Assembly: GCA_020848455.1 (NCBI GenBank)
Contig: JADLAB010000206.1
Location: forward strand, 1-40,195
From: Polyangiaceae bacterium
GTDB taxonomy: Bacteria; Myxococcota_A; Polyangia; Polyangiales; Polyangiaceae
DNA length: 40,195 bases
Reading direction: 5' to 3'
The stretch's first letter is position 1. The number at the start of each line of letters is the position of its first letter. Under the pieces are notes generated by a model. It saw only the letters and a list, made by a program, of their open reading frames with translations. It did no database searches and was not told the origin of the DNA. The position numbers and the translations under genes were made by a program. Below are positions 20,183-23,068 of this stretch, one piece after another.

Positions 20183-20389
20183 ATGGCAAGCACCTGGGCC
20201 TCGGCCTCCGCTCCCTCTCCGGACGCACGTGGCGCCCGTATCCTCGCGAAGACCGTGTACCGGGAGCTCCGCGAGAACGGGCTCCGGCACGAAGACCTCA
20301 TCGCGTTCGCGGCGGAGATGATCGGCCTCGTGGCGAGCGGCATGAAGGGCACGGAGGCCGCACCGGGCGGCCCGACCTCGCGTACCTGA
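20183..20389 (+). CDS. small protein of unknown function
   Basis: 68 aa from ATG 20183. The core 'ILAKTVYRELRENGLRHEDLIAFAAEMIGLVASG' (about 20-53) looks like a conserved two-helix unit with an amphipathic pattern and a balanced composition, unlike the Arg/Ala/Pro-rich shadow frames of this genome. The N-terminal about 19 and C-terminal about 14 residues look disordered. It has no signal peptide, membrane segment or Cys. It stands alone between the metallophosphoesterase and the FHA/CpaF-like gene, with an AT-rich patch upstream and a promoter for the next gene 44 bases downstream. I do not recognise a named family. If it were not a gene, 20052-20562 would be an unusually long empty stretch. 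Confidence 0.55.
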   Translation: MASTWASASAPSPDARGARILAKTVYRELRENGLRHEDLIAFAAEMIGLVASGMKGTEAAPGGPTSRT

Positions 20390-20562: not shown

Positions 20563-22461
20563 GTGGCGGTCTCGATCATCATCAGCGAGAAGGGCGGGGC
20601 CGAGCGGCGCGAGCTCTACGACCAGCCCGAGGTGAGCATCGGGCGCGTCAAGGGCAACGACATCCTCTTGCCGAAGGGCAACGTCTCGAAGCGCCACGCT
20701 CGGCTCATCTTCCGCGACGGGCGGTGCATCGTCACCGACCTGAAGAGCACGAACGGCACGTACGTCAACCACCGCCGCATCACCCATGCGACGCTGGTGC
20801 GCGACGGAGACCGCATCTACATCGGTGATTTCGTGGTGCGCGTCGAGGGCGAGCCCACGGCGGGCCACGATCTCAGCCGCACGACGCTCGGCGGACTCGA
20901 CGCCCCTTCGGAGCCGAGCATCTCGAGTCGCGCCCAGCGCATGGTCGCTCCCGCGGTCGCGTCCTCTGGGCCGGCGACGCCCGAGGTGGTGAGCCACTTC
21001 CCCATCGAGCACGACCCCGACGAGTCGTCGCCGTTGCTCGAGGTTCCGGGTCCGCCGAGGGTGCCGGCCGGGCTGCGACCGATCCCCGCGACGGCGGCGC
21101 CCGCGCCTGCCGAGGGCCCGAGCACCTCCGAGCTCTATGCCGCGCCTCTCCACCAGAGCTCCGAGCCGGCGCCAGGGCCGGCGCACTCGAGCTCCAGTCC
21201 GCAGCCCGATGGCGACCGACTCGCCCTGCTGCAGCGCTGCCTTACCGAGCTCGTCGCGGCGCTCGAGGGGACCGGAGCGTGGAGCGACGACAGCACGGCG
21301 CCCGAGGCCGAGCGGGTGGCCGCGCTCGAGACCGAAGCGGCCCGCGTCGCTCAGGCGGCCGGGGGGGAGATCGACCTCGGTGCCCTGCGCGACGCGGCGC
21401 GCCGGGAGCTCCTCGACCTGGGGCCGCTCGCGGCGCTCCTCGAGGATGCGAGCGTGTCCGAGCTCCACGTGCTCGGCACCGAGATCAGCGTGGTGCGACG
21501 CGGCCGGCGCACGCTCCACCGGGGGCTCGGCTTCTCGAGCGACCGCGCGCTCGCGCGGGCGCTCGACCGGCTCGCGGCCCGCAGCGGGGTGACGCTCGAC
21601 CCGCGCGAGACGAGCCTGCACGTCCTGCTCGACACCGGCGTCGAGCTCTGCGTCGTGCGGCCGCCTGCGTCGCCGACCGGACACCTCGTCTCCTTGCGCA
21701 AGGCCCTGCGCTGCGAGGGCACGCTGAACGGCCTCGTGCGCAGCGGGGCCATCTCGCGCGGCATGGCGACCCTGCTCGGTCACGCCGCCATGGCGCGCGC
21801 CAACCTGCTCGTCACGAGCGCTCCGGGGGCGGGTGCCGAGGAGCTGCTCGGCGCGCTCGCCGACGGCGCGACCGCGTCCGGAGGGCGCGTCGTCTGGCTT
21901 CTCGACGGGCGGCAAGTACCCCCTGCCCCGGCAGCCTCGATCGAGATGGGCCGCTCGGCCGCCGAGCGGCTGCGCGCGCTCGAGATCGCCTGTCGACTCG
22001 GCCCGGCCCACCTCGTTGTGCCCGCCCTGACGGCCCCCGAGATCGGCGTCCTCGTCGACGCGGTGGCCGAGGGGCTCGAGGGCGTGATCCTGCGCGCGTC
22101 CGCGCCGACGCTGCGCCAGGCGATCGCGCGGCTCAGCGCCGACCTGGCGAGCTGCACGGCGGGCGGCAGCACCGAGGCGGCGCGCGAGCGACTGCTGTCG
22201 GCCTTCGACATCGTCCTCGAGGTGGCCCGGCTGCGAGACGGGCGCCTGCGGGTGCTGCGGCTCGCGGAGCTCCGCGCCGCGGTCGCGGGCGGGATCCACA
22301 TCACCGACATCTTCAGCTTCAGCTACCACCGCACGGCAGCGGGAGGCTCGATCGAGGGCTCGTTCGTCGCATCGGGCGCGATTCCGAGCATCGTGGAGGA
22401 GCTCGCTGGGCGCGGGATGCCGATGGACACCTCGATCTTCCGTCGCCACCCCTCTGGCTGA
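20563..22461 (+). CDS. FHA-domain protein fused to a degenerate CpaF/TadA-like ATPase
   Basis: 632 aa from GTG 20563. Residues about 5-95 are an FHA domain with the phosphothreonine-binding residues in 'VSIGR', 'VSKRHARLIF' and 'LKSTNGTYVN'. A Pro/Ser-rich linker follows (about 100-215). Residues about 220-600 follow the CpaF (secretion ATPase) layout: 'LGPLAALLEDASVSELHVLG', 'RALARALDRLAARSGVTLDPRETSLHVLLDTGVELCVVRPP', 'LVSLRKAL', 'GTLNGLVRSGAISRGMATLLGHAAMARANLLVTSAPGAGAEELLGAL', and an end 'LSAFDIVLEVARLRDGRLRVLRLAEL'. The Walker A Lys is gone (APGAGAEE at about 420-427 where GGTGSGKTT is expected). The Walker B region reads AHLVVPALTAPE, and the His box reads ILRAS instead of TIHAN. So it is probably an inactive adaptor that binds phosphorylated partners. 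No other tad/pilus genes are present. Confidence 0.8.
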   Translation: MAVSIIISEKGGAERRELYDQPEVSIGRVKGNDILLPKGNVSKRHARLIFRDGRCIVTDLKSTNGTYVNHRRITHATLVRDGDRIYIGDFVVRVEGEPTAGHDLSRTTLGGLDAPSEPSISSRAQRMVAPAVASSGPATPEVVSHFPIEHDPDESSPLLEVPGPPRVPAGLRPIPATAAPAPAEGPSTSELYAAPLHQSSEPAPGPAHSSSSPQPDGDRLALLQRCLTELVAALEGTGAWSDDSTAPEAERVAALETEAARVAQAAGGEIDLGALRDAARRELLDLGPLAALLEDASVSELHVLGTEISVVRRGRRTLHRGLGFSSDRALARALDRLAARSGVTLDPRETSLHVLLDTGVELCVVRPPASPTGHLVSLRKALRCEGTLNGLVRSGAISRGMATLLGHAAMARANLLVTSAPGAGAEELLGALADGATASGGRVVWLLDGRQVPPAPAASIEMGRSAAERLRALEIACRLGPAHLVVPALTAPEIGVLVDAVAEGLEGVILRASAPTLRQAIARLSADLASCTAGGSTEAARERLLSAFDIVLEVARLRDGRLRVLRLAELRAAVAGGIHITDIFSFSYHRTAAGGSIEGSFVASGAIPSIVEELAGRGMPMDTSIFRRHPSG

Positions 22462-22567: not shown

Positions 22568-23068
22568 ATGGCCATCCGCAGCATCCTGCACTACCCCGAC
22601 CCCCGCCTCCGCCAGAAGGCCGAGCCCGTCGCGACCATCACCCCGGAGATCCGCCGCCTCGTCGACGACATGGCCGAGACGATGTACGCGGCGCCCGGCG
22701 TCGGGCTGGCCGCGCCGCAGATCGGCGAGCTACACCGCGTCTTTCTCGTGGATGTGGCCGGTGACGACGAGCCGAGCGACCTGCACGTCTTCATCAACCC
22801 GGAGATCGCCGCGCGCGAGGGCACGCAGGTGTTCCGCGAGGGCTGCCTCTCCTTTCCCAAGGTCTCCGAGGACGTGGAGCGGGCGGCACGGGTCGTCGTG
22901 CGCGCCACCGACATCGAGGGCAAGCGCTTCGAGCTCGAGGCGGACGGCCTGCTGGCCGTCGCCATCCAGCACGAGCACGACCACCTCGACGGCGTGCTCA
23001 TGATCGACCACCTCGGGCCCATCAAGCGACGCATCGTGCACCGCAAGATGCTGCGGCGCGAGGACTGA
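22568..23068 (+). CDS. def: peptide deformylase
   Basis: 166 aa from ATG 22568. It removes the N-formyl group from new proteins in the cytoplasm. The three family motifs are intact: GVGLAAPQIG (44-53), EGCLSFP (91-97, metal ligand Cys93) and QHEHDHLDG (134-142, metal ligands His135 and His139 with catalytic Glu136). The length is normal for type 1 enzymes. The usual partner fmt is not adjacent in this window. It is convergent with the ribD gene, with a short stem-loop between them. Confidence 0.97.
   Translation: MAIRSILHYPDPRLRQKAEPVATITPEIRRLVDDMAETMYAAPGVGLAAPQIGELHRVFLVDVAGDDEPSDLHVFINPEIAAREGTQVFREGCLSFPKVSEDVERAARVVVRATDIEGKRFELEADGLLAVAIQHEHDHLDGVLMIDHLGPIKRRIVHRKMLRRED

Follow-up and report, generated by a model that had tools for sequence, protein, structure and literature searches.

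A conserved FHA-CpaF fusion protein of the Polyangiaceae with a predicted dead ATPase site, a candidate phosphothreonine-reading scaffold

Results

The window, which here means the whole stretch of 40,195 nucleotides that was analysed, is contig JADLAB010000206.1 of a Polyangiaceae bacterium. One of its genes encodes a protein in which an FHA domain is joined by a disordered linker to a domain resembling the secretion ATPase CpaF. An earlier note on this DNA proposed that the ATPase part had lost its nucleotide motifs and that the fold had become a phosphorylation-controlled adaptor. The features of the locus are collected in Table 1.

Table 1. Features at the FHA-CpaF locus, with residue changes predicted by alignment to CpaF
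Feature	Position	Strand	Basis or remark
Unlisted 68-aa ORF, upstream neighbour	20183..20389	+	tblastn matches in nearly all fetched loci of the taxonomic family of the window
FHA and predicted catalytically dead CpaF-like protein	20563..22461	+	632 aa, GTG start
FHA domain, residues 24-88	20632..20826	+	Pfam PF00498, E 1.3e-18; ligand residues intact
Linker motif VSHFPIEHDPDES, conserved	20989..21027	+	surrounding linker variable and disordered (linker pLDDT < 50)
CpaF/TadA-fold domain, residues 218-631 (predicted)	21214..22455	+	8rjf_A Z 27.4; Foldseek 9e24_A 2.3e-24
Lost N-terminal-domain residues D215/R217/R223, now H353, L355, E361	21619..21645	+	alignment; CpaF residue roles from PMC12019362
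Predicted dead Walker A, SAPGAGAEE for GGTGSGKTT (residues 419-427)	21817..21843	+	alignment to CpaF
Predicted dead Walker B, AHLVVPALTAPE (residues 482-493), E357 to A488	22006..22041	+	alignment to CpaF
Predicted dead His box, ILRASAPT (residues 509-516) for TLHAN	22087..22110	+	alignment to CpaF
Peptide deformylase (def), first gene of the def-ribD-fabF-acpP-fabG block; context marker	22568..23068	+	Pfam, synteny

A Pfam scan for T2SSE gave no match in the 632-aa protein, so the case for homology to CpaF comes from NCBIfam, phmmer and the fold. TIGR03819 of NCBIfam matched residues 253-565 at 2.7e-21, which is below the model's own cut-off. The sequences of the CpaF structures 8rkd and 8rjf matched residues 281-605 at 1.2e-19. 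A monomer was modelled with AlphaFold2 from five sequences. Its pLDDT lies mostly between 73 and 91 in blocks over residues 221-570, with dips to about 60, and is lower towards the C-terminal end; it is 53-74 in the FHA domain and falls below 50 in the linker (residues 98-214). Compared with CpaF (8rjf_A), the model aligned 403 residues within 218-631 (Z 27.4, rmsd 8.9 Å). This high rmsd, the mobility of the CpaF domains and the five-sequence input place ring interfaces beyond the reach of the model. The modelled FHA domain matched solved FHA domains with Z of about 12. Both fold and homologous sequence assign the protein to CpaF/TadA by descent, and the model predicts that the complete fold is kept, in agreement with the CpaF layout recognised in the earlier note.

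CpaF residues K287, T288, E312, R347, E357, D215, R217 and R223 have been named in PMC12019362. On CpaF numbering, K287 aligns with A425, T288 with E426, E357 with A488, D215 with H353, R217 with L355 and R223 with E361; the E312 position is no longer Glu and TLHAN has become LRASA. The sole survivor among the named catalytic residues is an R347-like Arg (R478). The set expected of a CpaF/TadA enzyme (Walker A Lys/Thr, Walker B Glu, Asp-box Glu and His box) is missing, and no intact P-loop was found elsewhere in the 632-aa sequence. Judged from the alignment, the ATP-hydrolysing site is gone. The three motif replacements lie exactly where the earlier note had placed them.

Conversely, the FHA ligand residues GR, SKRH and STNG are intact, as had been claimed, and nearly all are invariant across the family alignment. 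G27, R28, S42, H45, N64 and G65 are invariant, so that the domain carries the GR, SxxH and NG signature of phosphothreonine-binding FHA domains. A motif in the variable, disordered linker, VSHFPxExDPDES, is kept in part of the family only and was for that reason set aside as part of the mechanism.

The relation of the protein to active CpaF proteins was examined by phylogeny. Twenty genome regions of relatives contain 20 FHA-CpaF ATPases, one of them with no FHA domain seen (either truncated at the end of its contig or overlooked), together with 11 second CpaFs. All 31 active sequences carry GG[TS]GSGK[TS], which was the requirement for entry into the tree. The intact FHA-CpaF group is labelled KilF-type here; KilF of Myxococcus xanthus is itself outside the tree. 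Motif-less proteins, KilF-type proteins and second CpaFs form three groups, each with 100% bootstrap, that separate at 100/98 and 100/100, and the window protein falls outside the KilF-type clade. By eye, its FHA type (EKGG...GRVQGND..LPKGNVSKRH...LKSTNGTYVNGRKI) is also unlike that of KilF-type sequences. The tree thus places the gene as a third CpaF-type paralogue, apart from both the KilF-type FHA-CpaF and the second active CpaF.

In relatives (L086, L090, L091, L096-L098, L101-L104) two active CpaF genes lie within a few kb of one another, one of them FHA-fused (KilF type). The genome of the window, a draft assembly, shows neither member of this pair. The secretion ATPases found in it are PilB/PilT/GspE-like only. 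A PF00482 scan of the draft (96.5% complete, 742 contigs) found four domains, two in each of two PilC/GspF-like genes (437-aa and 409-aa frames), and no TadB/TadC platform; no active CpaF or second CpaF-type match was found in the same draft. Tad and Kil are likely absent from this genome.

A dead subunit might regulate a pilus or secretion machine in trans, mixing with or docking on an active KilF-type protein, a second CpaF, PilB or GspE and poisoning or positioning the motor upon phosphorylation. Active genes of the KilF type and for a second CpaF do occur in many relatives, and the genome of the window has PilB/PilT/GspE-type ATPases and PilC/GspF-type platforms. Yet the gene is strongly constrained while no CpaF-type partner was found in its own genome or in a same-genus relative. 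The family also split early from both active paralogues, and the gene is unlinked to kil/tad loci. Regulation in trans is therefore unlikely, though it fares best among the alternatives to an orphan scaffold.

To follow the motif loss across the phylum, 95 genomes were searched with the CpaF-like domain alone as the query and 40 regions were then inspected. Proteins with an EKGG-type FHA and a CpaF-like domain are present in many Myxococcota families, and all 34 sequences of this protein family form one clade (100/98 support). Six orthologues from one taxonomic family (f22) keep GPxxxGK[ST]T, DECxG (the Walker B DE) and HG (the His box), and one of these Lys-keeping sequences passes Pfam T2SSE. 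The f22 versions are probably active. A seventh f22 sequence (L143) has lost the Lys. L139, from another family in the class of the window, keeps the Lys, the Asp-box Glu and GDLRG. The Lys position in most other sequences of the phylum is R, V, T or nothing.

Within the order, the Walker A Lys (K287) is absent from 45/45 non-redundant sequences, which include the copy in the window. Some replacements are conservative (GPLGAGTTT, GSVGAGVTT), and at the other extreme the motif is wholly replaced (SAPGAGAEE). When regain was disallowed, 200 bootstrap trees gave 3-8 losses of the Lys (mode 6), a count that is approximate because deep branching in the family is weak and because L161 (GVGKRTV) and L144 (DTGKLTF), which keep the Lys with other residues changed, are outside the tree. 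Ordinary parsimony on the Lys position gave 4 changes. With K287, the Walker B DE and a His box still present in six orthologues from f22, loss of the ATPase is derived, repeated and lineage-specific. The earlier note had taken orthologues with normal Walker motifs as the mark of a one-off decayed copy. Such orthologues exist only in other lineages, namely in f22; the motif loss is conserved throughout the order but is not phylum-wide.

The intact predicted fold, the R347-like Arg, the remaining loop glycines and the motifs of the f22 orthologues are consistent with a divergent yet working nucleotide-dependent protein that holds its nucleotide in a rearranged site. Among close orthologues, however, the Walker A loop drifts freely (SAPGAGAEE, GPAGDTES, GAAASGGRG), unlike a site under selection, and a working site of this kind is quite improbable.

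The FHA domain is the most conserved part of the protein. Mean identity in this protein family is 53% for the FHA domain and 30% for the CpaF-like domain; in the KilF-type proteins the values are inverted, at 37% for the FHA domain and 75% for the ATPase (sets of 17 and 7 sequences). Selection thus acts mainly on the FHA domain in this protein family and on the motor in the KilF type.

All 59 related genomes yielded matches, with a clear orthologue in about 55/59 by our reading of the listing, and nearly all members of the order carry the gene. One further ORF that clusters with the family (L045:3-2450) lies near the orthologue in G048, with a weak FHA match listed there. In a comparison with the same-genus copy, the pseudo-ATPase has a dN/dS of 0.098 and the control gene def one of 0.121, and dN is 0 over residues 1-100, which hold the FHA domain. 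Selection on the gene is purifying and the constraint is strong. Although active-site residues are lost, a decaying pseudogene is refuted by these values, by the lack of stops and by orthologues in most relatives, syntenic in the taxonomic family of the window; the one-off decayed copy that the earlier note had allowed for falls with it. Its main observation, motif loss with fold retained and FHA intact, holds order-wide.

At orthologue loci in the taxonomic family of the window, the gene adjoins def, ribD, fabF, acpP and fabG. These are housekeeping neighbours, and no tad or kil genes lie beside the gene, as had been noted for tad; the protein therefore differs from KilF in not being encoded with a tad/kil system. 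The synteny was rejected as a functional link, since def has the same orientation in some genomes and the opposite in others. The 68-aa ORF matched nothing in Pfam or NCBIfam. Codon changes relative to the same-genus copy (L038) are synonymous in 11 cases and non-synonymous in 3, and the ORF has the core RILAKTxYRELRxxGLxxxDxxxxAxExxxLV.

Pfam identified two protein kinases in the window, which agrees with the count in the earlier note. There they had been mentioned beside the proposed adaptor. The 9.2 Mb draft genome contains at least 152 protein kinase matches, with about 0.66 expected per 40 kb; the two kinases are thus uninformative and were rejected as evidence. No kinase occurs in the conserved neighbourhood of the orthologues.

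Of 14 wider regions from outside the order, at least 10 have a gene for a protein of 417-505 aa next downstream on the same strand. Those of the proteins scanned with Pfam have two FHA domains each, with a weak TPR match in one, and by eye there is a hydrophobic segment after the two FHA domains. The gene pairs at L176, L177, L178, L181, L183 and L185-L189 look operon-like. Within the order the two genes lie apart, the double-FHA gene not being adjacent. Partner candidates were found in seven order genomes, including that of the window (G000:C7:65713-66492, of moderate similarity and cut by a contig end), although FHA similarity alone could yield these candidates.

Discussion

These results suggest that the protein is an orphan, dead CpaF/TadA paralogue kept as a phosphothreonine-reading scaffold and not as a motor, a reading to which we give a probability of roughly 0.6. 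The phosphorylation-controlled adaptor proposed in the earlier note is what we infer as the best account of the sequences. Throughout the phylum, relatives retain the reader but have lost the engine several separate times, which suggests that a pilus-motor fold was reused as a signalling scaffold. In this reading the CpaF domain would still oligomerise, probably into a ring that displays several FHA domains to partners phosphorylated on threonine by Hanks-type kinases. Over the wider phylum, the double-FHA protein encoded next door, which has a single predicted transmembrane segment, is the likely partner and would place the complex at the inner membrane. ATP binding would be ancestral and have become dispensable in most lineages. 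For the taxonomic family of the window, the product of the neighbouring 68-aa ORF is a possible additional partner.

A fuller version of the scaffold reading is more tentative, and we hold it at somewhat less than even odds. A pilus motor would have become a phylum-wide, ring-shaped, phosphothreonine-reading hub that works with a double-FHA membrane protein independently of pili, and the ATPase would have been lost several times because only the FHA-bearing scaffold was selected.

Hanks-type kinases are very numerous in Myxococcota (at least 152 in this genome), and to our knowledge few readers of their phosphorylation have been described. If the scaffold reading is true, a near-universal and strongly constrained reader on a dead pilus motor would be a well-defined node for experiments. 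Because probably active (f22) and dead forms of one protein occur in the phylum, they can be compared directly; the phylum also provides a case in which a type IV pilus family motor has been converted repeatedly to a pseudo-enzyme.

Several known systems resemble the window protein in part. GarA and OdhI, whose FHA domains are similar to its own in sequence and fold, are small FHA proteins that act on 2-oxoglutarate metabolism and have no motor domain. The Tad pilus motor CpaF/TadA (8rkd, 8rjf, 9e24) shares the complete predicted fold over residues 218-631 and detectable sequence similarity, whereas the window protein has lost all catalytic and most arginine-finger residues and no Tad platform was found in its draft genome.

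The FHA-CpaF fusion itself is already known from the same phylum. KilF, which has an N-terminal FHA domain fused to the CpaF fold, belongs to the Tad-like Kil predation system of M. xanthus and acts in contact-triggered Kil assembly (eLife 2021, PMC8460266). The KilF type is a clade of its own, in which Walker A is intact, the ATPase domains are about 75% identical and the FHA domains vary, whereas the window protein is a motif-less orphan in another clade. No report of this conserved, repeatedly inactivated orphan FHA-CpaF branch, a pseudo-CpaF, was found in the literature searched. PilB of M. xanthus is also a type IV pilus family ATPase, and it goes on signalling when its ATP hydrolysis is deficient (PMC5544727), a precedent for a related motor that signals independently of ATPase activity. 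PilB differs in being a working motor with signalling as a second role, and the abstract describes no FHA fusion.
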